Shown piece after piece: positions 11,736 through 26,014 of a DNA stretch of 33,375 bases. The notes below the pieces were generated by a model, which ran no database searches, was not told where the DNA came from, and saw only the letters and a list, made by a program, of their open reading frames with translations. Every line of letters begins with the position of its first letter. Position 1 is the stretch's first letter. Position numbers and translations under genes: made by a program. The DNA is from a virus, in IMG/VR virus record IMGVR_UViG_3300032069_000036, positions 1 through 33,375 of that record. One strand, 5' to 3'.

Positions 11736-14700
11736 TTACTTCATTTTATTGAAAATATCTGATAGCCACTTGTCTTCATCATTTAACGAAGAATCAAATT
11801 GCATGTTAAAAGCTCGTCTCAGTACTTTACTTTCAGAAAGATTTGTAGCTCGATTAACCCTTCCTATTGATTTTGCAAAAGCTGATAGTGTTAAATTATC
11901 AAGCTTTAGTAAGTCAGCGCATTGCTTATCCATTGCTTTCTTAAAAGCCTCATGCCGAGCATCAAATAGCGAAAGGCCTGACTTGATACTCTCTTGCACA
12001 TCTACTTCGTCAGCAACAATTAAACCTTTATCGGCCATTTCATTGACAACCGACTGAGCTCTAAGAGTTTTTTCACGAAGTGTATTAGATAACTTCAAAC
12101 TTGCGAGTTCAGCTTCAAGCTGTTTTTCTCGTTCATTAACAACAAGTGTTGGAGATGAAGGAATTTCAGTCTTTGTGGTTGACGCTTCCTTAGCGACGGG
12201 AGGCTCAACCTCAGACTTTTTCTCTTCCTTAGGCTCTTCCTTAGGCTCTTCCTTTTTCTCCATTGGAAGTTCTTTCTTTACCTCAACCTTTTCCTTCTTT
12301 TCCTCTTTTTTCTCAGTTTTTTCTTCTTTAGCTTTTTCCTTTTCCTCTTTAGCCCTTTCCTTCTCTTCTACCTTAGCGGCTTTATCTGCTTCTTTTTTTG
12401 CTTCAGCTTCAGCTTTCTCCTGCTCTTTCCTCGCTTCCTCAGCAGCCTTATCCGCTGCTTTAGCATCTGCTTCTTGTTTCTTTGCTAAAGCGGATTCCAT
12501 CTTCTCAAGAGCCTTATGGACGCCTTCTAAGGGTTTCCTAAGTTTATCATCGGGTTGCATGAGGTCTAAGACAGACGCTATATACTCCAATTTTTCCATG
12601 TCCGACATTGCAGCGACGTCCTTGGCTGGAGTAATTGGCCCATCTTTAGGAAGCTCAGTCGGAATATTTTCTTTAAGAACTTCTGGTTCTGCTTTTGTTT
12701 CTAGCTCAGCTTTCTTTTCAGGAACATCAAAACCATGTTTGCGAGCTTCATCATAAGCAGCAGCCTTAGCTCGCTCGGGCTCCATTTTATCCTCTTTAAT
12801 ATGTTTCTCAATATGTTTAGAGATAAACTCTTGAGCCTCAGGAGTTACTTTAGCAGGTTCAGCAGTGATTGTAATAGCTACCTCTTCAGAAGCGTGTTTG
12901 CCACCAGCTGGTTTATATTGACCCTTATCCATTGTTTTTTGAGTTGGCCACTCAGTTGCACTTCCGCCAGTTTGACCTAACGCTGGAGTATGACCCCCTC
13001 CCGACATATCCACACCTTCAGGAGTTTTCTTTATTTTAGCGTGTTCACTCTCTGCGGCGGGCGTATATTGGTCGCGACCAACTGATTTTTCTGCAGGCCA
13101 TTCACCTCCGGCTGGGCCAACTTGCCCACGAGAAGCTGGAGGAGCGGGTTTTACTGGCTCTTCCTTACCTTGTAAATTTTTATCATCCTTATGAGCTGCG
13201 GCCACATAAAGAATAGCATTAGTAATAGTGGCTACTTTAGCTACACCATCTTCTTGAATGCGTGTAAGGAGAGCATCTCCATAGTCTGCTGAAGTAGCAT
13301 AATCAACCATCTTAGCTAATTTGTCTTGCCAAATTTTTTCAAGAGTTGCTTTCATTACCGGCTTACCATTATCAGTTACGACCCAGTATGACTCTTTGAG
13401 AGATGGCTTAGAAACAAAAATAGCTTTTAGATCAGTATTTTCAACAGGAGTCTCCAGAGACTTAGGTGCACATATTAAATCTTTAGGAAGAGTTTCCATG
13501 GCAGATTTTGTAGCCAATTCATCATTTTTACTAGCATTAAAAGAAGTTTTCCAAGTATCTTTAAACTTTTGAAGAACTTCCGCAGAAACTTTCTTTTGTT
13601 CTAAATGAGTAAGCCAAGCGTCTAGATGAGGGCTCTTAATTTCCTCAACTTTTGTAACTTCAGATATTTTAACTTCAGGAGTTTCTGTAGCTTCTATTTT
13701 TGGTGTTTCAATTTTAGAGGCATCAGAGGCAATTTCAACTTTAGTTTCGACTTCAGCTTTCTTCTCTTCTTTCTTCTCTTCTTTCTTCTCTTCTTTCTTC
13801 TCAGCTTTTTCCTCTTTTCTTTCAGCCTTCTCTTCCTTTTTCTCTTCCTTTTCTTTCTTCATTTCAAGCTCCTTTTTGGGCTCTTCCTTCTTCGCTTCCA
13901 CCGCTCCCTTTTTAACAAAATCCAAAATATCTAAATATTCAAGTGCGGATAATTTTTCACTAAAAAGTTTTTTAATTCTAGATTCTTTATCTTCAAGTTT
14001 TACTTCAGAAACAGGGGCTTCTAATTTTACAGGCTCATTAGGTGTACTCATTTTGACTAAATCCTCCAACTGACGTAGCATTTCAGCAGGAACTTCTTGC
14101 TTAGCTGCTGCGATCTCTTTAAGTTGTGATATTACCTGAACAATTTTCGCATTATTCCATGCAGGAACATTTACTACAGAAAGTTCAGTAAAATTAATTC
14201 CTTGGTTAATGGCAAAAGCTTTTACTCTTTGACCTTTTTTTATGTTGAAATCCGGAAGATCAGTTTCGGCTAGATACTCTTTTAAAAGACCTTTTGATAA
14301 ATGAAAACATTTTGTGTCTTGATCAGAATAAACTGTATGACCACAAATTGAACATATTGAAGATTCGCATGAACAATTATGTACTGCAATTCCATTTGCG
14401 ACGTAAGAATTTCTATTTTCTACTTCAAGATTATAAACATAATCGTTATAATCCTCAGCTTCTATAGCGGCGACAGGTACCATTACATAATTATTGAGAA
14501 TAAATTTTCGTTGATTATGTGATGGAACATCTGCTACTTTTACTAAATCGGGAATTTTATCGGTTATTTTTTTAAAAGGTTTAATAGCTGCGCCGCTGAT
14601 ACAAATTCGATAAGTTGTTGATTCTTTAATTTTAACTGTTCCCTTTTTAAAATGAGCTTCATGCTCTTTGTAATGTTTCTTTTCTAATGACCATAAGATA

Positions 14701-15989
14701 TTGTTTCTACTTAAAATCCAACAAAATTGTAATGCTAAATTATACGAGCCTGTTTCTGCATATAATCTTTTAACAGGAGATGTTTGCTCATTTTTATATT
14801 CACTTGAAAATCCATCGCCGTTGATAAAAGAACCCAGTAATTCAAGTTGTAGTTTAGGATCCCAATACCATACTGATTCAGCTAGAGATTTTTCTTTAGC
14901 ATACTCTTTTCCAAGCTCTAAAAATCTACTAGCTAGAGGCTCATCAAATAATGAGATATTAGTCCCTAGTTTTCTTTCATCATGATAAATATGCGCGGTT
15001 TTTCCTGTAATCTTTTTAATAAGAGATAAAATTTCTTCGTGATATTTGGTTTCGTTAAGATGTAACGAAAAGTAAACGCCTACAGGGATTACGCCGCGCC
15101 CTGCTCTTTTATCATAAGTAATATTTCCTTCAGATAAATAATAGCCAAAAAGACGTGCAAAATCTTTAGTAACGTATTTTGGAGTTTCAATTTTTGTTGG
15201 AAAAGGTATAGCTACATAATCACCTATTCTTAGATCAGCAGCTTTAACCCACTCAAAATTATCTGTGCCTGTAACTGAAGAAAATTTACTAGAAATATAT
15301 GCATTTTGGTTTTCAGTAAGACATAAAACTAAATCATCTTTTTTAACAATATTTTCTTTTTTAATAACCCAAAAGGGATGTTCTTCTGTAGTAACTAGAG
15401 GTAATTGAAAAAGCCCTCTAAACTTAATATTATAAATTTGATTAAGATATGGACGTTTAAATGTTTTTAGAACTTTATCTTTTGTGCCTGCATGAGTAAT
15501 TACATATTCACCTTCTTTAACATTTTCTATATTACGGTGCGTACCATCAGCCATTAAAACAGGAGTGCCTGCTTTAAAACAACCCATACTTACTGCATCA
15601 AGAATCCCTGCAATCAACTGTCTAGCTAAATCAGGATTAGCTACAGCATCAATTTTTGCTAAACATTCTATATACTTCTCCCCTGTTTGAGAATCTTCTA
15701 CTGGATACGCGTCTAAAACTTTTCCAATAGCTTTTCTAGGATCTGAGGAGTCGTGGTTTAAAAATAAATTACGACCAACAAATGTTGAGTGAGATTTCAG
15801 CAATTGTGACCATGGAAAGTAGTCACCATTACCGTTTGGGTCATCTCCAGCAATTGCTTTAGACGCGAAATAAAGAAATTCGGATGTTTTGTGAGGGTGA
15901 GATTCTACAAGCTGCGACTTACCATTTGCGACCACATCTAAGCTACCTACACGAATAATTCTTAAATCAACTCCTCTTTTTATAAGCAT
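11736..15989 (-). CDS. Prohead protease-scaffold fusion interrupted by an intein (1417 codons, about 1015 aa after splicing)
   Basis: ATG at 15989. Exteins: residues 1-136 plus 539-1417. The protease part fits HK97-like (S78-type) prohead proteases: H79 in LFLNHD is the candidate catalytic His and S134 in DAVSMG the nucleophile, with KYIECLAKID between. Right after the Ser motif comes a Cys cluster (C539, C541, C546, C549, C561), probably a zinc site, seen in some large-phage proteases. A long Lys/Glu-rich region follows, with two WP repeats (EWPAEK and EWPTQK, about 50 aa apart). The C-terminal about 130 residues are helical (EAELASLKLSNTLREK to the end) and look like a scaffold core. The protein would cleave the prohead core and itself during maturation. 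The intein (137-538) is annotated separately. Confidence 0.8.
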   Translation of the reverse strand: MLIKRGVDLRIIRVGSLDVVANGKSQLVESHPHKTSEFLYFASKAIAGDDPNGNGDYFPWSQLLKSHSTFVGRNLFLNHDSSDPRKAIGKVLDAYPVEDSQTGEKYIECLAKIDAVANPDLARQLIAGILDAVSMGCFKAGTPVLMADGTHRNIENVKEGEYVITHAGTKDKVLKTFKRPYLNQIYNIKFRGLFQLPLVTTEEHPFWVIKKENIVKKDDLVLCLTENQNAYISSKFSSVTGTDNFEWVKAADLRIGDYVAIPFPTKIETPKYVTKDFARLFGYYLSEGNITYDKRAGRGVIPVGVYFSLHLNETKYHEEILSLIKKITGKTAHIYHDERKLGTNISLFDEPLASRFLELGKEYAKEKSLAESVWYWDPKLQLELLGSFINGDGFSSEYKNEQTSPVKRLYAETGSYNLALQFCWILSRNNILWSLEKKHYKEHEAHFKKGTVKIKESTTYRICISGAAIKPFKKITDKIPDLVKVADVPSHNQRKFILNNYVMVPVAAIEAEDYNDYVYNLEVENRNSYVANGIAVHNCSCESSICSICGHTVYSDQDTKCFHLSKGLLKEYLAETDLPDFNIKKGQRVKAFAINQGINFTELSVVNVPAWNNAKIVQVISQLKEIAAAKQEVPAEMLRQLEDLVKMSTPNEPVKLEAPVSEVKLEDKESRIKKLFSEKLSALEYLDILDFVKKGAVEAKKEEPKKELEMKKEKEEKKEEKAERKEEKAEKKEEKKEEKKEEKKAEVETKVEIASDASKIETPKIEATETPEVKISEVTKVEEIKSPHLDAWLTHLEQKKVSAEVLQKFKDTWKTSFNASKNDELATKSAMETLPKDLICAPKSLETPVENTDLKAIFVSKPSLKESYWVVTDNGKPVMKATLEKIWQDKLAKMVDYATSADYGDALLTRIQEDGVAKVATITNAILYVAAAHKDDKNLQGKEEPVKPAPPASRGQVGPAGGEWPAEKSVGRDQYTPAAESEHAKIKKTPEGVDMSGGGHTPALGQTGGSATEWPTQKTMDKGQYKPAGGKHASEEVAITITAEPAKVTPEAQEFISKHIEKHIKEDKMEPERAKAAAYDEARKHGFDVPEKKAELETKAEPEVLKENIPTELPKDGPITPAKDVAAMSDMEKLEYIASVLDLMQPDDKLRKPLEGVHKALEKMESALAKKQEADAKAADKAAEEARKEQEKAEAEAKKEADKAAKVEEKERAKEEKEKAKEEKTEKKEEKKEKVEVKKELPMEKKEEPKEEPKEEKKSEVEPPVAKEASTTKTEIPSSPTLVVNEREKQLEAELASLKLSNTLREKTLRAQSVVNEMADKGLIVADEVDVQESIKSGLSLFDARHEAFKKAMDKQCADLLKLDNLTLSAFAKSIGRVNRATNLSESKVLRRAFNMQFDSSLNDEDKWLSDIFNKMK
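14376..15581 (-). mobile_element. LAGLIDADG intein in the prohead protease (402 aa)
   Basis: Residues 137-538 of the precursor. Block A starts at Cys1 (CFKAGTPVLMADGTHRNIENV); block B is LPLVTTEEHPFWV with the T-x-x-H pair. The two LAGLIDADG motifs are LFGYYLSEGNI (about 280-290) and LLGSFINGDGF (about 384-394), with acidic residues retained. Block F is YVYNLEVENRNSYVANG and block G is IAVHN followed by Cys+1. All canonical splice residues are present, so it should splice and may still encode an active homing endonuclease. It sits one residue after the catalytic SMG motif. Confidence 0.95.
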
Positions 15990-16356: not shown

Positions 16357-17016
16357 ATGAATGAACAGAGTATACTTAATCAAGCCGACATATCGGGACG
16401 CCTTTATAAAATTTATAATTTATGGGTAAATGAAGGAATATCTCACACAAATATAGCTAAAGCAGCTAAAATATCTCCAGCTCGCTTGTCTTTTCTTTAT
16501 AGAAGAATTGAAAAAATTCTAAGTAAGAAAATAGAACGTAAGAAAAAATCTTGTTCAGTATGTGGCATTAAACTTGTAGGCGCAAATTATAATGAATACC
16601 AATCTGTTAAAAGAAAAAGTCCAATATGCAAGGAGTGTGTTAAAAAATTAAAACCGGATTTATGGGAACGCATTTTCTCTAAAGTTAAATTAGGTAGGGT
16701 CATTCGACCTTATGTTACTACTCCCTGTTTTGAATGGCAGGGCGCTATTAGTGGTGGCCGCGCAATGGTTGCATATAAAAAAGATAATGAAAAGGTGGCT
16801 CGTGCTCATTACGCTTATAGAGTAGTATATGAACTTGTTAATAAAACACGTATTCCAGATGGATTAATGATATGCCACCATTGTGATAATGGCGCGTGTG
16901 TTAACCCCTCTCATCTTTTTCTAGGGAGTGCCATTGATAATTTTAAGGATATGGTGTCTAAAGGAAGAGGTTATGTGTTTGTTAAAGGAGGCCCAGGTCG
17001 AGGACATAAAAAATAA
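16357..17016 (+). CDS. HNH homing endonuclease on the opposite strand (219 aa)
   Basis: ATG at 16357, the only supported plus-strand gene. Residues 15-55 look like a helix-turn-helix (LWVNEGISHTNIAKAAKI), and C66-x2-C69 with C91-x2-C94 form a zinc ribbon. Residues 120-205 are an HNH_3-type nuclease: TPCFEWQGA, ARAHYAYRVVYEL, IPDGLMICHHCDNGACVNPS with H174, H175 and H186, then the closing LGSAIDNFKDMVSKGRG. It interrupts the minus-strand head operon, divergent from the 77-aa gene and convergent with the 136-aa gene with only 5 bases between stops. That fits a mobile gene inserted in an intergenic spot, not an essential phage function. Confidence 0.9.
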   Translation: MNEQSILNQADISGRLYKIYNLWVNEGISHTNIAKAAKISPARLSFLYRRIEKILSKKIERKKKSCSVCGIKLVGANYNEYQSVKRKSPICKECVKKLKPDLWERIFSKVKLGRVIRPYVTTPCFEWQGAISGGRAMVAYKKDNEKVARAHYAYRVVYELVNKTRIPDGLMICHHCDNGACVNPSHLFLGSAIDNFKDMVSKGRGYVFVKGGPGRGHKK

Positions 17017-17733: not shown

Positions 17734-20700
17734 TTATGTTCCAACTGGCGGAGTAGGTGGAGTAGGTGGTGTGGGGGAAGTAGGGACAGGAGGTGTTCCA
17801 ACTTCAGGAGTCGGAATTCCTACTTTAGGGGCACCACCTACTCCAGGTAAAATTTCCTCAGAGGTATTTTCAGGTTTTTCTAGAGCTTCAATTGCACCAG
17901 AAGGTAGCCTATGATCCCCCTTATCAAAAATTGTCTTCCTTTCTTTTTGTAGCTTAATTGCTTCTGTTGCAAAATCAAGATCTGGAAATTTTCCAAAGAA
18001 GGTTTCAGTACTTATAATTCCCTCTTTCCACATTTCATGATACATTTTTCTTTCTTCGTCTCTTTCTTCAATATCAAGAGACTTATACCACGAAATGGTA
18101 GGAAGAATATACTTCTTTTTACCTCTCACAATAGTATAAAGATTATTTTTGACAGCAAGAGGCCTAAAGAAACATCTAATCATCCAATTTTCAAATTGAT
18201 CTCTTATAGCTTTATACACCATCATCAATTTGTGTAACGACATCGTTTTTACATTACTATTGCCTGTAATAATAAAACGACCATTGCGTTCACAAATAAA
18301 CGCGTGATTAATAGGTAAATGAATACACCATACCTTACCTTTGTACTGAACTTTAAAAGTATGTTGTCGTTGCCCTTTATCCTTTTCACCCCTTTTATCG
18401 AGAATAAAGAAAGGATTTTTATGTTCGCTCCAATTTACATGAAATAAGTTATTGTTAGCAGAAGTTTTTTCAACACTAATATGTGGAGTATTTCCACATT
18501 TAAGACTAATTTCGAAAACATCTTCTGCTAGCTGGTTAGATGTAGTATGATAAGTAAAATAGTGCGCTTTAGCCTTTCTCCGTCCTGTTGGTTTATGTAT
18601 CGATCCATCTCCCTGCATCATGGCGTCAAGAAGAATTTTTAAATATTTAGGAGAAAGATTTTTTATCCAAAGAGGAATTTTTTTGTTAAAAGCTCCTTTG
18701 CCAAAGTTGTCAATAAAATATAAAGCTAAATTTTTATTACTTATATTCCACGTGTAGCAGTCATAACTTTCTTTTATAAGAACATTACTATTCGCTGGAA
18801 CATAAGTAGAAACCGAACGATATTTAGCAACTTTAAATGGTAAATGTTCTGTAAGTTCACCAAATTGGTTCAGGTATTGACTATTAATACTTTGGGAAAA
18901 TTTGACGTCATATTGGCCTTTTTCCTCATTAAAAGTTACTGAACCTTCTGATAACCAATACCCTACCCATTTGAGATATGTTTCAATTGGAATTTTTTTG
19001 TCTAAAACTTTAACAGTTTTAGGAGCTTCATCTCCATCCCAATCAATTCCCAGCCTAAAATGTGAGCGATGGCCTATATCTTTAGCTTGACGGAATTGCC
19101 AGGGTGATTTACCACCATTATTAGGTTGGACCCAACAATTGTGGTTGGGGGTAACCAGGTGGTCTATCTTCTGGGTTTTAAAATGAATCATCTCCCCTTC
19201 ATAATTTTTTACGAAAATTTCTTCGTAAGGAACATACTCAAGTTTATTTGTTTCGGAATCAAAGGACGCTATCTTATCTTTTTTGGATAATTGCCAGTAA
19301 TATTTTAATCCTTCTTGGGTTAATGCGCGAGTGTCAGCGGAGCAGGGGAAATTAGGACCTTCTCCAGTAATAATATTTTTATTTACGCCAAGACCTACCA
19401 TTATTTGTTCGTAGACTGACGCAAGTTCGTTAGCAACAGGGAAAAAAGATTTTCCTGAAGTACTTAATGCTTCATATTTTACTATTGGTGGAAAGACAAG
19501 CGAAAAAGGTGGTGACTGGACTGCTAAATTGATTGTATTTTTAAATTTCTCTAAATCATCTTCAGTAGGCCATATTCCTTGCGAAGCGTCACCTATTTGC
19601 CAAAGCTCAATTGGAAATACATATCTCTGATAAAAAGCAGCAGTTGCTAAACGAAGCCAGTCAACCCAAATTAAGGGTTTGAAACAACATTGGATTGGCG
19701 AAGTTCCCCTAGTCGCCGAAGGGTCAGTTATTCTAGCTATCATGCTAACTTGATCACTATCTAACGGAATTAACCGATTATTTCTAACACTTTCCAAAAC
19801 CACATCTGGAACTTTCTTCTGTCTTTCTTGAGCAACCTGATCAGTAGAACGACAAAGTTGTTTTAATTCTTCAGTAGGTACAAGTTCAAATCGAGGTTTG
19901 TCTTCAAAGAGTTCCTGTCTAACTTCCACAAGTTCAGGTTCAAGAAGAATAAAATTCTGCCATTTCCACATCCCATCTTCTTCATCCTGAATCATATTAC
20001 CAAAATGTAATGACTCTCCAAATTTACAATATGATAAACTTGCTTTAAGAATATGTTCATACAGATCAAAAGAATCACTAAAAGATACATCTTTATAAAA
20101 AGCAGTTACAGAAGGATCACTTGTAATAATATCAAATTTAGAAAAAGGATAAAGTGAATGCATTTCTATAATACTTTTTATATAGGGATCTAAATTATAG
20201 AAGATTCTACAGTTATGAGCAGCTACAGGTAGGCACAGTGAATGATCTTTTGTGGTGATTTCTTCAATAGGTTTATTTATAACTTTTTCAATATTAACAT
20301 ATTCAACATCTAAATAATAAAATTTATCATCTTGAGTAATTGTTTCAATATCTTTATTAATTATTTGAATTTGTCCCGTAACTTCTCGCCTTAAAATTCT
20401 ATTGGCGCGTAATCCTAATAAAAATAATTGATTTGATTTCTGAGATGAGTCACACCAAATAGTATCGGTTCTTCGGTTAGATCCCCAAATAAATAAAGAA
20501 TTGAGTAATTCTTGAGAAGTATTTAGCGGAAGAGAGAATACCCATTTTGGAAAATTTTTATTGAGTAGAGTTCCTCTTCCAAAATATTGTTGAAGAAAAT
20601 CGCTTAAAATGGGAAATTTTAACACAAAAAATCCATTTGAAGCAATTTTAAGTAATAAAGAAGGTATACCACAATCTTTTAATAAAGAAGAAATATCTTT

Positions 20701-23115
20701 AGCAAAATAGATATGCTTATCGTGCGCATCAATAGTTCCTCCAGATAAGTAAGCTCCAAATAATCTAATAAAGGGCTCATTATCTGTGGAAATAAATCGA
20801 GGTAGCTTAAAATTAATATTTTCAGGACGATATTTTACTTCAATGAAATCGTTAGTTACTGAATAAAACCAAAATTTACGAATAGCTTTTGGAATATAAT
20901 TTGCTAAATCAAATTTTTCTATGCTAAATTCTTTACATTTAGGTACTACTAATATATCGTTTGCTTTAAGTAAAGATGCTGTAATCCATGTTAAATATTT
21001 TTCGGAAGGATAAGTTTTGGATTTTATAACTTCAACAAATTCTTTTTGCTGTTGATTAGTCCAGTGTCCTCGAACAACTTTAATTCCCATTAAAACTTTA
21101 GCGTCGGTAACTTCAAATTCGGGAATGCCATTTACCTTTACTTTACAAATTTCTCCAGAATATTTTCGTGCAAATTTACTTACAATGGGGGTAAATTTAC
21201 CTGAAGCACTTAGCGCTTGTTGCTCAATATTAATAGCTCGAATTTCCTCAGGTTTTGCTTCAGTAATTAAATCGCCTAAAGTTTTACAGTTAAAATTAAG
21301 AATCGGAACCGCAGTAGTAGTATCCGCGGTTAAAAAGTCATAAGCTTCTCCAACTACGTGGCGGTGTTTAATTTCAGAAATAGGAAGATAAAAATATTTG
21401 CTGTCCTTTAAATATTTAGCTCGATTAATTTTTGGGGAGGTATACCCAAAGCGCTCGAGATCTTTACCAAAAACAGATAATTCGACATAATAAGGTTGAG
21501 TTGGAATTACTTCAACTCCATTACAAATATTACCTCTTTTTGAATCATCTAAATTTAAATGAGGTATTATTCCTATTTTAGTAAATAGCCAGAAAAGCTG
21601 ACCCCCCATTCTTCGAGAAGCAGTGACTCCCTTTACTCTGTCGCGAACCTGTGTACCATTTCCTCCAAGCCAACCACGAAGAAAAGCTTCTACATTTTCT
21701 TTAGAAGTATACATTAGCCAATCGGGAAGAGTTTTACTTGGCGCTTTAGAATTTCCAAGTGATTGATTGATAAAAATCGCTAAAGGAACATTATTTATAT
21801 TTAAAGAAATCCCTTTAGTTCCTTTTTTGTGTGATATATTATAATAACCCCCATAAGTAGCAATAATATATTTTCCTAAACTATGTGCGATTTCGTTTTC
21901 ATCAATATTTAAAGAAAGATTTAGTGATCTTCCTGTGCAAGTATTTTCCGCTGCGCACCATCCAAGAAAATTAAAAAATTCAGGTTCCCATTTAATAAAG
22001 CGAGAAAATTTCTTGTCAAAATAAGAAATGTGTGAGTTATTAGCAAAATATCTTTGAGAATTTTTTACATATTCAAATAAATCAATAGTGGGAAGAATTT
22101 TTTCTTCTAAAAATCTGGGAAGTACAACCCAGTCTCTAGTTGTCAAATTTTGAACAGGCATTTGGATACAACGATCTAAAAGCTCTCCGGTAAATTTGTT
22201 TAAAACATTAGAATGCCCTGCTATAGAAATTCCTGGTTTATGTCCATCACGTAGAGCTAAAATGGGATGACCATAGGTGAACTCAAGAGGAAAATTTCCA
22301 AGACTTTTAACTTTAAGACTAACAACATCTCCCGTAAAAGCAATTTTCTTAAGTTGTTTAATTTGTTCTGAATCATTTGTAATAGTAACAAATCTTAAAT
22401 CATCAGTTAATTCATCTTTATGATAAATACCATCAAGAGAGAGAACTTTATCAGAAAATTGCGACCATTTTAATATTTCCACGCGACTATTTTTTGTTAC
22501 AATTTTTCTTCCGCTAGAAGTTAATACAACATAGTTGTAATTATTAGTTACGTTAATTGCATCATAACCATCAGCTATACCTCCATCTTCAATATGATCT
22601 ACATAAAGTGGTTGATCGTCTTGAGTTAAAATAGAATCCCCTTTTTTAAGACTACGAGAAGCAATTGTATTTCCATTAGAGAGATAAAATTCATGCTCTT
22701 TACCTGAAGAAATAGTGGAGCCATCAGAAAAAACAATTTTCAATAGAGGAACATTTCTGCCGTGACATTGAGAGGAATGAGCATATTCAACACAGAATTT
22801 ATTTTCAGCAAGATTGTAACTTACAACAGGAATATGTCGAACATCTTTTTTCGCAAGCTCGCCCAAAGTTGGAGTGGATCCATCTGCAAGAAGAATTTTT
22901 GTTGAAAAACTGGTGTACTTAGGAAGTAGAAATGATTCAACAGTAAGCTCAGGGCTGTAGAAAAAAGATGGAGTTTGTGACGTAGGGAAAGCTCCACCGA
23001 TAGAAGATCCTGCGAAATTAGGAGAAGAGGATGCTTGTTTACGAATCCCGTTTAATCCTGCTGCATAAACACCCGCTTTATTTATTCTTGGCGCTGTTGC
23101 TTTTCTTTTACCCAC
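17734..23115 (-). CDS. Portal protein carrying multiple inteins (1793 codons, about 539 aa after splicing)
   Basis: GTG start at 23115 after GAGG. Joined exteins: 1-68, 210-217, 969-1257 and 1620-1793. They read as a portal: FFYSPELTVESFLLPKYT, SRVEILKW, CRIFYNLDPYIKSIIEMHS, then SYCKFGESLHFGNM, a crown/stem region with FKPLIWVDWLRLATAAFYQR, and GLGVNKNIITGEGPNFP joining SNVKTMSLHKLMMVYKAIRD. A Pro/Thr-rich tail ends the protein. The portal is the dodecameric ring through which DNA enters the head; it follows terminase, as in most tailed phages. Three intein blocks interrupt it (22489..22911, 20212..22464, 18259..19344), and intein sequence makes up 70% of the frame. No stop or frameshift breaks the 5.4 kb frame, which argues that it is expressed and spliced. 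Confidence 0.9.
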   Translation of the reverse strand: MGKRKATAPRINKAGVYAAGLNGIRKQASSSPNFAGSSIGGAFPTSQTPSFFYSPELTVESFLLPKYTSFSTKILLADGSTPTLGELAKKDVRHIPVVSYNLAENKFCVEYAHSSQCHGRNVPLLKIVFSDGSTISSGKEHEFYLSNGNTIASRSLKKGDSILTQDDQPLYVDHIEDGGIADGYDAINVTNNYNYVVLTSSGRKIVTKNSRVEILKWSQFSDKVLSLDGIYHKDELTDDLRFVTITNDSEQIKQLKKIAFTGDVVSLKVKSLGNFPLEFTYGHPILALRDGHKPGISIAGHSNVLNKFTGELLDRCIQMPVQNLTTRDWVVLPRFLEEKILPTIDLFEYVKNSQRYFANNSHISYFDKKFSRFIKWEPEFFNFLGWCAAENTCTGRSLNLSLNIDENEIAHSLGKYIIATYGGYYNISHKKGTKGISLNINNVPLAIFINQSLGNSKAPSKTLPDWLMYTSKENVEAFLRGWLGGNGTQVRDRVKGVTASRRMGGQLFWLFTKIGIIPHLNLDDSKRGNICNGVEVIPTQPYYVELSVFGKDLERFGYTSPKINRAKYLKDSKYFYLPISEIKHRHVVGEAYDFLTADTTTAVPILNFNCKTLGDLITEAKPEEIRAINIEQQALSASGKFTPIVSKFARKYSGEICKVKVNGIPEFEVTDAKVLMGIKVVRGHWTNQQQKEFVEVIKSKTYPSEKYLTWITASLLKANDILVVPKCKEFSIEKFDLANYIPKAIRKFWFYSVTNDFIEVKYRPENINFKLPRFISTDNEPFIRLFGAYLSGGTIDAHDKHIYFAKDISSLLKDCGIPSLLLKIASNGFFVLKFPILSDFLQQYFGRGTLLNKNFPKWVFSLPLNTSQELLNSLFIWGSNRRTDTIWCDSSQKSNQLFLLGLRANRILRREVTGQIQIINKDIETITQDDKFYYLDVEYVNIEKVINKPIEEITTKDHSLCLPVAAHNCRIFYNLDPYIKSIIEMHSLYPFSKFDIITSDPSVTAFYKDVSFSDSFDLYEHILKASLSYCKFGESLHFGNMIQDEEDGMWKWQNFILLEPELVEVRQELFEDKPRFELVPTEELKQLCRSTDQVAQERQKKVPDVVLESVRNNRLIPLDSDQVSMIARITDPSATRGTSPIQCCFKPLIWVDWLRLATAAFYQRYVFPIELWQIGDASQGIWPTEDDLEKFKNTINLAVQSPPFSLVFPPIVKYEALSTSGKSFFPVANELASVYEQIMVGLGVNKNIITGEGPNFPCSADTRALTQEGLKYYWQLSKKDKIASFDSETNKLEYVPYEEIFVKNYEGEMIHFKTQKIDHLVTPNHNCWVQPNNGGKSPWQFRQAKDIGHRSHFRLGIDWDGDEAPKTVKVLDKKIPIETYLKWVGYWLSEGSVTFNEEKGQYDVKFSQSINSQYLNQFGELTEHLPFKVAKYRSVSTYVPANSNVLIKESYDCYTWNISNKNLALYFIDNFGKGAFNKKIPLWIKNLSPKYLKILLDAMMQGDGSIHKPTGRRKAKAHYFTYHTTSNQLAEDVFEISLKCGNTPHISVEKTSANNNLFHVNWSEHKNPFFILDKRGEKDKGQRQHTFKVQYKGKVWCIHLPINHAFICERNGRFIITGNSNVKTMSLHKLMMVYKAIRDQFENWMIRCFFRPLAVKNNLYTIVRGKKKYILPTISWYKSLDIEERDEERKMYHEMWKEGIISTETFFGKFPDLDFATEAIKLQKERKTIFDKGDHRLPSGAIEALEKPENTSEEILPGVGGAPKVGIPTPEVGTPPVPTSPTPPTPPTPPVGT
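18259..19344 (-). mobile_element. Portal intein 3, LAGLIDADG type (362 aa)
   Basis: Residues 1258-1619 of the precursor, between GPNFP and SNVKT. Block A: CSADTRALTQEGLKYYWQL with Cys1. Block B: HLVTPNHNCWV with T-x-x-H. LAGLIDADG motifs: YLKWVGYWLSEGSV and YLKILLDAMMQGDGSI, acidic residues present. Blocks F/G: VWCIHLPINHAFICERNG, then RFIITGN with Ser+1. The residue before Asn is Gly instead of His, a common variant in phage inteins. Likely active in splicing and perhaps in homing. Confidence 0.93.
20212..22464 (-). mobile_element. Portal intein 2: composite of two fused intein modules (751 aa)
   Basis: Residues 218-968 between SRVEILKW and CRIFYNLDPY. Module a (218-609, 21289..22464) has Ser1 (SQFSDKVLSLDG), an intact block B (FTYGHPIL), two weak LAGLIDADG motifs (FLGWCAAENT, FLRGWLGGNGT) and a block F/G ending ILNFN before Cys610. 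Module b (610-968, 20212..21288) has CKTLGDLITEA in place of a full block A, a block B with Lys for His (EVTDAKVL), weak LAGLIDADG motifs (LFGAYLSGGTI, LLNSLFIWGSN) and an intact block G (PVAAHN then Cys+1). The outer splice motifs are good; the inner ones are altered. The whole thus may splice as one unit. Two sequential splicing events sharing Cys610 are the alternative. Confidence 0.85.
22489..22911 (-). mobile_element. Portal intein 1, mini-intein without endonuclease (141 aa)
   Basis: Residues 69-209, between LLPKYT and SRVEILKW. It starts SFSTKILLADGSTPTLGEL (Ser1, block A), continues with a block-B-like segment (VFSDGSTISSGKEHEF, His141), and ends with YDAINVTNNYNYVVL and RKIVTKN before Ser+1. 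Its length matches a bare splicing domain, so the endonuclease has been lost or was never there. The residue before the last Asn is Lys, not His. The exact first residue (S69 against S71) is uncertain. Confidence 0.85.
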
Positions 23116-23352: not shown

Positions 23353-24594
23353 TTAAGTGAGAAATCGGCGACCTTGTGTATTAATATCATTTGGTCGCGG
23401 TGATAAAATACTTCGAGGCATTGTTGCGGAAGGTATATGAATTGAGGAAAGTCCCTGCTTAAAAATTGTGGTTTTGTCCGCTGCAAATATAGACATACAA
23501 TCCGAAAAAACTCCGTCGTCGTGGCCATTTGGAACTGAAATTTTAGAGTTGAGTCCTAATCCTATATGGTTTTCTAAAGCTACCCATTGATAATAATGTT
23601 TTCGAAAAAGTGTATTTGACTCTATTTCATCCATTGAAGGATATTTGATTCTACCTGCTTGTAATTCAAACTTAAATTGTTCACACATCGCATTCTTATA
23701 GTTTTTATGAGAACTAGGCTCAGTAGCCGCAAACATAATACCAGCAACAGGTACTTTTGCTCTTTTAAAAGTTTCTACGGCAGTAATTCCTACATTACTG
23801 TAGTCTATAAGGCCAAATGTACAAGGAAATACTCCATAACTTGGATGTACAATTTGAATTGCTTCTTCAATTTGTGTTAGACTGTCACCTCCTTGCCACT
23901 CGTATACGCCAACTTTCTCTTTAATATTTAAACCGGTTTTTCTCCAGATAGAAAGAGCTGTATAATCAAGATCATATTTTCCTGGCATTAATGTGTTGCT
24001 AGCCGTATCAAGTCCATAAAAATATTCCTCTCCCGCTTTACTTCTTAATAAAATTTTGTGCTTACTATCCAATAATTTTTCTAAATCTGCAACAGATAAA
24101 AATGTATTAACATCATCCATCCATTTCATTCCATATTGAGTATTAAACTCAATCTCAGACATATCTCCGTCAGTATGTAATTCAGGATGATTAGGAAACA
24201 TCTTAACTTTTAGCGACCGAGGCATACGGTCTAACACTTTTGTAGGATACTTCTTACCATCAATCTCTGTAACACCCGATTCTAATAAAATTGGAGAGTG
24301 TAACCAATCATGTTCTATAACTTTATATTTAGGATCAGAATAGCTTTGAAAAAAATGATTTTTGAATAAAGGAATACCTATTTTAATTAATTTGTATATT
24401 TTTTTTGAGCCAGCCATTGGCATGATTCTTTGTCGAATAGAAACATCTGAAATTCTGTGTGATTCGTCGCAGTTATGTACAATAATTCCATTAGCAACAT
24501 AATTATGATTGTCTTTTACAGTAATGTCATAAACATATTTATCTAAAATATTAGGCTTAATTTTTTTAATAGAAACTATTTGTCCTTTTACCAT
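23353..24594 (-). CDS. terL: Large terminase C-terminal half with split-intein C-piece (413 aa)
   Basis: ATG at 24594. Residues 1-41 are an intein C-fragment: YVYDITVKDNHNYVANG (block F) and IIVHN (block G). The terminase resumes at Cys42 with CDESHRISD, the acidic half of Walker B and the following motif III region. The RNase-H-like nuclease domain follows: GLDTAS (D196), FGLIDYSNVG (D264) and NGHDDGVFSDCMS (D359/D360, D365), the three acidic sites expected for headful-packaging nucleases. Trans-splicing to the half encoded at 24965..26014 would give about 529 aa, a normal terminase length. Without it, neither half has both the full ATPase site and the nuclease. Confidence 0.92.
   Translation of the reverse strand: MVKGQIVSIKKIKPNILDKYVYDITVKDNHNYVANGIIVHNCDESHRISDVSIRQRIMPMAGSKKIYKLIKIGIPLFKNHFFQSYSDPKYKVIEHDWLHSPILLESGVTEIDGKKYPTKVLDRMPRSLKVKMFPNHPELHTDGDMSEIEFNTQYGMKWMDDVNTFLSVADLEKLLDSKHKILLRSKAGEEYFYGLDTASNTLMPGKYDLDYTALSIWRKTGLNIKEKVGVYEWQGGDSLTQIEEAIQIVHPSYGVFPCTFGLIDYSNVGITAVETFKRAKVPVAGIMFAATEPSSHKNYKNAMCEQFKFELQAGRIKYPSMDEIESNTLFRKHYYQWVALENHIGLGLNSKISVPNGHDDGVFSDCMSIFAADKTTIFKQGLSSIHIPSATMPRSILSPRPNDINTQGRRFLT
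24472..24594 (-). mobile_element. Split intein, C-terminal fragment (about 41 aa)
   Basis: Residues 1-41 of the downstream terminase gene. It holds blocks F and G with His-Asn at the end and Cys+1 in the extein. The length is typical of natural split-intein C-pieces. It starts with its own ATG, with no clear Shine-Dalgarno, which suggests coupling to translation of the endonuclease region just upstream. Confidence 0.9.
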
Positions 24595-24974
24595 ATAGAG
24601 TTCTCTAAATGATCATATTCAAATTTTCCCATTAATTTAATTACAACTTGAGGATATTGATTTTTTAAACGCTTCATAAACTCTTCGACTCTTATCGCAA
24701 ATTTTGCAGCAACACCCCCAATCTACCGAAGATTTAGCATGTCCTTTAACCTCAATATATTTATTTAAAAGTTTAAAATCGGGTGTATAATAATGTATTT
24801 TATCATCAAGATTCACGGGGAAAGTGTCGAACTCATATTGATATTGTATATTTTTGCTTTTTAAAGATCTGCAAACATTGGCTTCCCACTCGGATCTAAC
24901 ATAATGACTTAAATCTTGACGAAATCCTCCGCGACAGTTAGAAAACATATTTGGATTTTTAATTTTACATTTTT
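24588..24974 (-). other. Two apparent +1 frameshifts at homopolymers in the endonuclease region
   Basis: Removing one A from the A5 run at 24974..24970 joins the NUMOD3-like end of the upstream gene to the nuclease frame (reading SEKLKCKIKNPNMFSN). Removing one G from the G5 run at 24719..24715 replaces the odd CCCKICDKSRR end with VAAKFAIRVEEFMKRLKNQY, then PQVVIKLMGKFEYDHLENSI and a TGG-TAA end at 24588, overlapping the next ATG (24594) by 7 bases. Both repaired readings look like the usual end and start of this nuclease family. Either indels in the assembly or decay of the endonuclease explains this. Confidence 0.7.
24637..24948 (-). CDS. PD-(D/E)XK homing endonuclease between the terminase halves (103 aa as read, C-terminus frameshifted)
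   Basis: ATG at 24948. The core matches Vsr/PD-(D/E)XK-type phage homing nucleases: FRQDLSHYVRSEWEANVCRS, a strand with FDTFPVN, then the active site YTPDFKLLNKYIEVKG with the PD and ExK residues. In this family a NUMOD3 DNA-binding stretch usually precedes the nuclease; here that stretch is the tail of the upstream terminase gene, one reading frame away. The C-terminus as read (CCCKICDKSRR onward) looks out of frame; the +1 frame continues a proper helix-strand end. The arrangement of a split intein with an endonuclease gene between the halves is the 'fractured gene' type described by Dassa and colleagues (2009). The active-site residues are intact, yet activity is doubtful if the frameshift is real. 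Confidence 0.8.
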   Translation of the reverse strand: MFSNCRGGFRQDLSHYVRSEWEANVCRSLKSKNIQYQYEFDTFPVNLDDKIHYYTPDFKLLNKYIEVKGHAKSSVDWGCCCKICDKSRRVYEAFKKSISSSCN

Positions 24975-26014
24975 AGTTTTTCTGAAGTGGATTTTAAACC
25001 TGAGTGTGTTTCTTTTGTTAACCCTTTTTGATAAGCGCTAAGCTCACCATTCGCCCACTTTTTCTTAAGTGCAATAGACGCATTAACAGAGGCTCTAGCT
25101 ACCCCGGAAGAAGTTTCTTTGGTAAGCCCCTTGTTCCAAGAAATATAGCTTCTTTTTTGTTTTCTCGTTTTAACCATCTCGGCTGTTCTTACTAAATAAG
25201 GTTTATATGTTGAAGCCAAATGTAAATTTCCCGATATTTGTGCTAGATCAAGAATATCCTCTGTAGTAAGATCTTTTGCACAAACAAATCCCCTATTTTT
25301 AGTTAAAAGCTTATGATCTTCAGTACAAATTAAATACTTAGTTCTTTTACCCCGTGAATATTCAATTTTTAAAAGATTTCTATTTTCTCTTTTATTTTTA
25401 CGGTATTCTTCAATTTCTTTCCATTCCAATTCCCCATTATTAATATTTTTTGATAAAACTTTAACAAATAATTTTTTTTCAACAATATCTTTAATAGGAA
25501 TCAAACCATTATCCGTAAGAATTTTAGTAGTACCTTTCACACAAATAATTATCGAAAAATGAAAACCTTCTTGGAGACTAGTCTCCGCGGCAGACAACGC
25601 TAACATTGAAGATTGATTTTTAAAAACTAATCTTTCAGCGGTAGTATGGTCCCAATCAACTCTATCTTTAATTTTAGAATTCGATAATATTTTTTTTGTT
25701 TCAGTAATAATACGTGTTGCTTGATCAGCGCGTGGACCAAAAACACCAACTTCTAATCCAGCATTTTCTAAACAAAGTTTAATAACTCCAATACAAACAG
25801 AATAGGTCTTACCTTCACCTCTTGATCCAATTATTACATTATATCCTTGATTCAAATCTATAACTGCCTTAACGATTTCAACTTCATTAGAGTATAATTC
25901 AACTCCAAGAAATTCTGTGGCCCACATTCCAATATCATTGACTTGTGAAACAAGTTTAGACGCTGATTCTAGCATCTGTTGCCAAATTAATTTTTGAAGT
26001 TCACTATCTTTCAT
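24965..26014 (-). CDS. terL: Large terminase N-terminal half with split-intein N-piece and NUMOD3-like tail (349 aa)
   Basis: ATG at 26014, overlapping the upstream stop as ATGA. Residues 1-157 are the N-terminal ATPase half: Walker A is IIGSRGEGKT (62-70), with FGPRADQATRIITE after it, and Walker B begins FHFSIII (151-157). At Cys158 the intein starts: CVKGTTKILTDNGLIPIKDI (block A) and YLICTEDHKLL (block B, T-x-x-H). Beyond about residue 260 the tail is no longer intein-like: two copies of a KGLTKETxSG unit (WNKGLTKETSSG, YQKGLTKETHSG) resemble NUMOD3 DNA-binding motifs of homing endonucleases. The gene stops at KLKM. Terminase pumps DNA into the prohead, so packaging here would depend on protein trans-splicing. 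Confidence 0.92.
   Translation of the reverse strand: MKDSELQKLIWQQMLESASKLVSQVNDIGMWATEFLGVELYSNEVEIVKAVIDLNQGYNVIIGSRGEGKTYSVCIGVIKLCLENAGLEVGVFGPRADQATRIITETKKILSNSKIKDRVDWDHTTAERLVFKNQSSMLALSAAETSLQEGFHFSIIICVKGTTKILTDNGLIPIKDIVEKKLFVKVLSKNINNGELEWKEIEEYRKNKRENRNLLKIEYSRGKRTKYLICTEDHKLLTKNRGFVCAKDLTTEDILDLAQISGNLHLASTYKPYLVRTAEMVKTRKQKRSYISWNKGLTKETSSGVARASVNASIALKKKWANGELSAYQKGLTKETHSGLKSTSEKLKM
24968..25543 (-). mobile_element. Split intein N-terminal fragment with NUMOD3-like extension (192 aa)
   Basis: Residues 158-349 of the upstream terminase gene. About 100 residues form the IntN splicing domain (blocks A and B as described for the gene), and the last 60 carry two NUMOD3-like repeats. 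The extension suggests that the endonuclease was once, or still is, translated in one piece with IntN. Confidence 0.88.

Follow-up and report, generated by a model that had tools for sequence, protein, structure and literature searches.

Two LAGLIDADG inteins arranged head to tail at a single site of a viral portal gene

Each insertion site is expected to hold only one intein, because an intein abolishes its own target when it inserts. Host proteins with two inteins are well known, for example the Haloferax mcm (PMC10643990) and M. smegmatis DnaB (PMC6195587). However, those inteins lie at different sites, and a stretch of extein parts them. In the virus record analyzed here (IMG/VR IMGVR_UViG_3300032069_000036, all 33,375 nucleotides of which are referred to as the window), the portal gene likewise carries two inteins, but they lie in one site and share one peptide bond. 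In the literature accessible without subscription, we found no prior description of tandem or composite inteins in one site.

The portal gene and its relatives

The portal ORF (Table 1) matches a PHROG portal family (9e-25), and the Bacillus phage G portal gp14 is a relative, with 30% identity over 100% of the portal piece (tblastn). Once three insertions of 143, 751 and 363 aa are taken out, a portal of 536 aa is left. The 751-residue insert comprises residues 218-968, is encoded at 20212-22464 (-) and stands at W217|C969, with W217 as its -1 residue. We place it there because L005 and L042, the closest related portals (74% identity), are free of the insertion and show the exact empty site, reading SFLLPK-SRVEILKW-CRIFYNLDPY. 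The original prediction had given the same boundaries, which hold on the 1793-aa ORF, and its key residues (S218, T280-Y-G-H283, ILNF608-N609|C610, V669-T-D-A-K673 and AAH967-N968|C969) are all located as it had claimed.

Used directly as queries, neither the 751-aa insert nor the isolated portal piece retrieved relatives from IMG/VR, whereas alignment-based searches did. A query alignment that combined portal pieces of the window and of phage G gave 40 related portals in IMG/VR, and a second search gave 14 further portal loci; the GTDB genomes searched contained no relatives. The insertion site is readable in 47 distinct portals. The +1 residue is Cys in 24 of them, five of which have an intein there, and it is Ile, Ala or Val in the other 23, none of which has one. 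A second tandem insertion was not seen among these 47.

The portal gene has other interruptions. By comparison with empty sites, mini-intein 1 seems to begin with an odd first residue, Tyr1 (Y67), followed downstream by Ser+1. Intein 3 seems to combine Pro1 (P1257) with Ser+1; at the same site, the intein begins with Pro1 in L051 and with Cys1 in L046 and L057. Position F:4 of intein 3 is Cys and position G:5 is Thr, which is reminiscent of class 3, but the Trp is one position off. Among the relatives, L024 has a further portal intein with an HNH-like core at GTSPIQ|CLFKAL, and the L066 portal ORF contains several inteins. Group I introns (Rfam RF00028) split the portal genes of L008 (4443-4641, 60.8 bits) and L016 (5698-5895, 65.1 bits) between SPEL and TSDSW, and the intein site follows a few codons downstream.

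Inteins are also present elsewhere in the window. The terminase large subunit (TerL) gene is fractured (23353-26014, -) into the three pieces listed in Table 1 and looks like either a broken intein or a split intein whose two parts flank an endonuclease ORF. Because the ORF for the head maturation protease and scaffold also contains an intein, at least three virion genes of the window are affected.

Table 1. Coordinates of the portal gene, its inteins and neighboring features.
Locus	Feature	Position	Strand	Remarks
Window	Portal protein ORF	17734..23115	-	1793 aa
Window	Mini-intein 1	22489..22917	-	143 aa (residues 67-209), flanked by K66 and S210; empty-site comparison
Window	Extein SRVEILKW	22465..22488	-	8 residues (210-217), separating mini-intein 1 from the tandem; empty site in L005/L042
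Window	Module a	21289..22464	-	392-aa intein, S218 to N609; five-intein profile E=4e-36, ending at N609
Window	Block B of a	22267..22278	-	T280-Y-G-H283, intact
Window	LAGLIDADG motif 1 of a	21943..21969	-	FLGWCAAEN, acid kept
Window	LAGLIDADG motif 2 of a	21655..21681	-	LRGWLGGNG, Asn for Asp of GDG
Window	Blocks F/G of a	21289..21342	-	YDFLTADTTTAVPILNFN (592-609); Asp593 at F:4, Phe608 for penultimate His
Window	Shared junction N609|C610	21286..21291	-	AAC TGT; end of a is start of b, zero residues between
Window	Module b	20212..21288	-	359-aa intein, C610 to N968; profile and model
Window	Block B of b	21097..21111	-	V669-T-D-A-K673, Lys for His; His in 5/5 single inteins
Window	LAGLIDADG motif 1 of b	20737..20763	-	LFGAYLSGG, Glu lost
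Window	LAGLIDADG motif 2 of b	20470..20496	-	LFIWGSNRR, acid lost
Window	Blocks F/G of b	20212..20268	-	IEEITTKDHSLCLPVAAHN (950-968); Glu952 at F:4, His967-Asn968 intact
Window	C969	20209..20211	-	+1 residue of C-extein CRIFYNLDPY
Window	Intein 3	18259..19347	-	363 aa (residues 1257-1619), flanked by F1256 and S1620; L005, L046 comparison
Window	TerL-N, intein N-part and repeats	24965-26014	-	Intein from C158; NUMOD3-like repeats
Window	Small nuclease ORF	24637-24948	-	Weak Pfam Phage_endo_I
Window	Intein C-part, then TerL-C	23353-24594	-	Intein ends HN|C
Window	Intein in protease region	14376-15581	-	402 aa (C137 to N538), in head maturation protease/scaffold ORF 11736-15989
Window	Free-standing HNH endonuclease ORF	16357-17016	+	Between protease and portal genes, opposite strand
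L008	Single portal intein	4750-6000		Residue 1 Pro
L024	Single portal intein	4750-6000		Residue 1 Pro
L022	Single portal intein	3557-4744		Residue 1 Thr
L046	Single portal intein	4753-6000		Residue 1 Gln
L048	Single portal intein	4744-6000		Residue 1 Met

The boundary between the two inteins

Five distinct inteins of 396-419 aa, one per portal, are inserted exactly between the W and the C of this site in relatives (L008, L024, L022, L046 and L048), and the intein of L056 is identical to that of L048. Both splicing His residues (block B and penultimate) are present in all five, as are the terminal Asn, the +1 Cys and the acid of each LAGLIDADG motif; F:4 is mostly Asp, and residue 1 varies (Table 1) and is never Cys. 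Judged by their sequences, the single inteins are an allelic family without a nucleophile at residue 1, a possible Thr aside. A profile search of IMG/VR with this family returned the same alleles and two distant inteins.

A profile of the five inteins matches each module of the insert separately, in agreement with the claim that two intein layouts with LAGLIDADG-type cores lie in series. Module a is matched at 259-609, up to the last position of the profile (E=4e-36), and its site, being empty in L005 and L042, marks it as an in-frame insertion. Its model (range 13-391) aligns to the TliVMA intein 7qsu with a Z of 24.3 (VIA-align), and model and profile together show the two halves of a Hint fold as well as a LAGLIDADG core. 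The catalytic residues T280, H283, N609 and C610 (+1) are present, with Phe608 where His is usual. Module b is matched at 616-875 (8e-18) and 923-968 (5e-7), again ending at the last position, and its model aligns to solved inteins with a best Z of 13.1. It has a Hint fold with its own blocks A, B, F and G, in a register from 609/610 to N968 given by profile and model. The mean pLDDT values of the predicted models, 58 and 50, indicate modest quality. The class 3 WCT triad (B:12, F:4, G:5) is absent from both modules, which have Ile, Asp and Asn (a) and Leu, Glu and Ala (b) at these positions.

Several registers agree on where b begins. Position 8 of the profile falls on residue 616, so that position 1 falls on 609 and the boundary is fixed to within a residue. 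In the MAFFT alignment, the first residues of the two modules, S218 and C610, both fall on residue 1 of the family and are followed soon after by the same one-residue gap. In the structural comparison (VIA-align), residue 613 of b coincides with residue 5 in almost every solved intein among the matches listed, and in the 769-residue model residue 221 lies on residue 5 in most mini-intein matches; S218 and C610 therefore occupy an equivalent place. In the model of residues 592-978, the first strand of b is DLIT (615-618), and the first 22 residues, which include YDFLTADTTTAVPILNFN, have low confidence. In the single inteins, the C-terminal blocks are the counterpart of this segment, to which they align without gaps. 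Because the alignment, profile and structural registers start b at about C610, we consider YDFLTADTTTAVPILNFN to be the C-terminal end of a, outside b.

These registers do not fit three parts of the original prediction. It had held that b lacks a normal block A, whereas the allele alignment, the profile and the structure all start b at C610 with the DLIT strand; block A of b is present, though weak. It had read YDFLTADTTTAVPILNFNCK as serving both as the F/G block of a and as the block A of b, whereas YDFLTADTTTAVPILNFN is the F/G block of a alone. It had also described two inteins fused through this shared segment, whereas the join is an exact tandem at N609|C610. The segment FLTADTTTAVPILNFNCKTLGDL was considered as a candidate block A of b and is ruled out, since allele alignment, profile and model all begin b at C610. 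The insert therefore consists of two homologous LAGLIDADG inteins, each of them complete, which follow one another head to tail at one site and share the N609-C610 bond. C610 is the sole Cys at residue 1 in the family, as would be expected if a uses it as the nucleophile at +1.

An artificial origin of this join was considered, in which the assembly would have combined two intein alleles from a mixed population. The record is a metagenomic virus contig, and relatives do have allelic inteins at the site. However, the longest word shared between the a|b and C-junction zones is 10 bases (8 for the other pairs), no exact match of a to b exceeds 11 bases, long repeats are absent, and the reading frame continues through a join that is precise to the residue. 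We regard such a chimera as highly improbable.

With regard to the natural origin of the tandem, the similarity between a and b is weak (blastp E 0.016). A tree of a, b and the alleles has long branches and places a and b with weak support, so that it is compatible with either a duplication or two separate arrivals. A composite intein would have no use for an exact inner junction, and the precision of the join therefore suggests that each intein was spliced on its own at the time the tandem formed. The idea that the a|b junction was a homing pseudo-site is not supported: its local DNA similarity to the empty homing site scores 8, below chance matches elsewhere in the gene, and only AAC TGT A is shared.

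Possible routes of portal maturation

The virus must excise both inteins, probably one after the other, to obtain a working portal. We consider serial splicing, with a first and b second, to be the best explanation of portal maturation that the sequence offers, at a probability of slightly below one half. Module a, for which Ser1 makes class 1 chemistry possible, would splice first by means of T280, H283, Asp593 and Asn609, with C610 as the +1 nucleophile, and its exit would join W217 to C610. This would put module b at an ordinary W|C site, preceded by Trp217 in position -1, from which it would splice with C610 acting as residue 1. The bulk of Trp217 (or Lys673) may make good the His that block B of b lacks, and H967, N968 and C969 would finish the reaction. 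The end products would be the W217-C969 portal and excised inteins of 392 and 359 aa. Because the -1 residue of b is Asn609 before a leaves and would be Trp217 afterwards, we infer an ordered relay from a to b. Either order of two splicing events, or one composite event, yields the identical W217-C969 portal.

The intact outer motifs and the loss of one His in each inner half (F608, K673) are as originally described. The loss of the block B His is the more serious of the two. In approximately 5% of functional inteins another residue takes the place of the penultimate His (PMC4031507), and in mycobacteriophages this His is often absent from working inteins, in one of which its restoration slowed splicing (PMC5050341). 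Therefore, F608 need not signal decay. The block B His was missing in two of the inteins known to a 2014 review, one being a pseudogene and the other using a Lys (PMC4031507). A block B His mutant of Ssp DnaB M86 is rescued by bulky -1 residues, with Phe allowing up to about 50% splicing; this rescue has been shown mainly in an evolved intein and with partial yields, and we found no mention of Trp at -1 (PMC6333167).

Two points count against the serial reading: independent working inteins should not each lose a His on their inner side, and the N-terminal half of a is highly divergent from the family. In leave-out profile scoring, this half reached 6.5 bits, compared with about 50 (49-54) for the N regions of single inteins. 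The N half of b scored 45.2 bits, and the C halves of a and b scored 32.0 and 23.1 bits, respectively, the C regions of single inteins ranging from 25.5 to 38.5 bits. The inner halves are thus family-typical but for one His each, and the N half of a is the outlier, which argues against wholesale decay on the inner side. The claim of decayed inner motifs accordingly stands for the F608 and K673 losses and fails for the remainder of the C half of a and the N half of b, which score near the family range.

The same scores bear on a composite intein, in which the N half of a (S218, T280, H283) would pair with the C half of b (H967, N968, C969) and the 751 residues would leave in one event with the inner ends idle. 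Both lost His residues sit in inner halves, whereas all five single inteins keep both, and if b cannot splice alone, an active inner C-junction risks a dead end. However, two random losses would both fall inside in one quarter of cases by chance, the frameworks of the inner halves are family-typical while the N half of a, which the composite needs, is not, and an exact inner junction would be superfluous. A structure prediction had been suggested to see whether the first N domain packs on the last C domain. The AlphaFold model contains no such match and pairs the N half of a with the C half of a, which is weak evidence because the alignment rows, which favored a with a, lay on a, and b was below pLDDT 50. 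We regard this composite, although chemically possible, as rather unlikely. A 751-residue composite with the N half of a domain-swapped onto the C half of b and a silenced inner junction, or else an obligatory relay activated by Trp217, is a doubtful pair of alternatives when the two are taken together.

Alternatively, the element may be dead or limited to cleavage, with at least one intein no longer splicing and the portal being cleaved, left unspliced or supplied from elsewhere. Active homing endonucleases carry an acid in each LAGLIDADG motif; a has GNG in motif 2, and b lacks both acids. Residues are therefore missing from the motifs of both endonucleases, b is without the block B His and a without the penultimate His, and the decay of inteins to pseudogenes is known (PMC4031507). 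Nevertheless, the 1793-aa frame has stayed open despite three insertions, the outer junction residues are intact, and the portal is essential, with no second portal seen in the 33-kb record (which is possibly incomplete). We consider a dead element unlikely and retain serial splicing as the preferred reading.

Comparison with described inteins

In the tandem, a single site of a gene required by the phage is filled by two inteins, exactly to the residue. Whether inteins that share a bond splice in order, interfere or merge can be tested directly on it, and so can the idea that a -1 extein residue replaces the most conserved intein His. Its nearest counterparts, the five single portal inteins, have the same site, full-length homology, the +1 Cys and the LAGLIDADG core; unlike the tandem, they are one per site and keep both splicing His residues and both LAGLIDADG acids.

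The best structural matches of a are the Thermococcus VMA inteins TliVMA (7qsu/7qss) and PI-PkoII (2cw7), with Z values of 24.3, 23.7 and 23.0. Like a, they consist of a Hint fold with an inserted LAGLIDADG endonuclease; however, they are single inteins with 17-18% identity to a in the structural alignment.

The allelic family widens the range of residue 1 (Q, M, T, P) among inteins with Cys+1. It resembles the class 2 intein of Mja KlbA in its nonstandard residue 1, its Cys+1, its block B His and its mostly Asp F:4, and it may, from these residues, be a class-2-like group outside the KlbA inteins. The KlbA type combines Ala1 with Ser at G:6. In contrast, residue 1 of the alleles is not Ala, and G:6 is the penultimate His in the alleles and in b and Phe in a.

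The closest parallels to the proposed behavior of b are the Tko CDC21-1 intein and Ssp DnaB M86(H73A), which splice without the block B His by means of a compensating Lys or a bulky -1 residue. Both are single inteins, whereas in b the Lys sits at the block B position itself.
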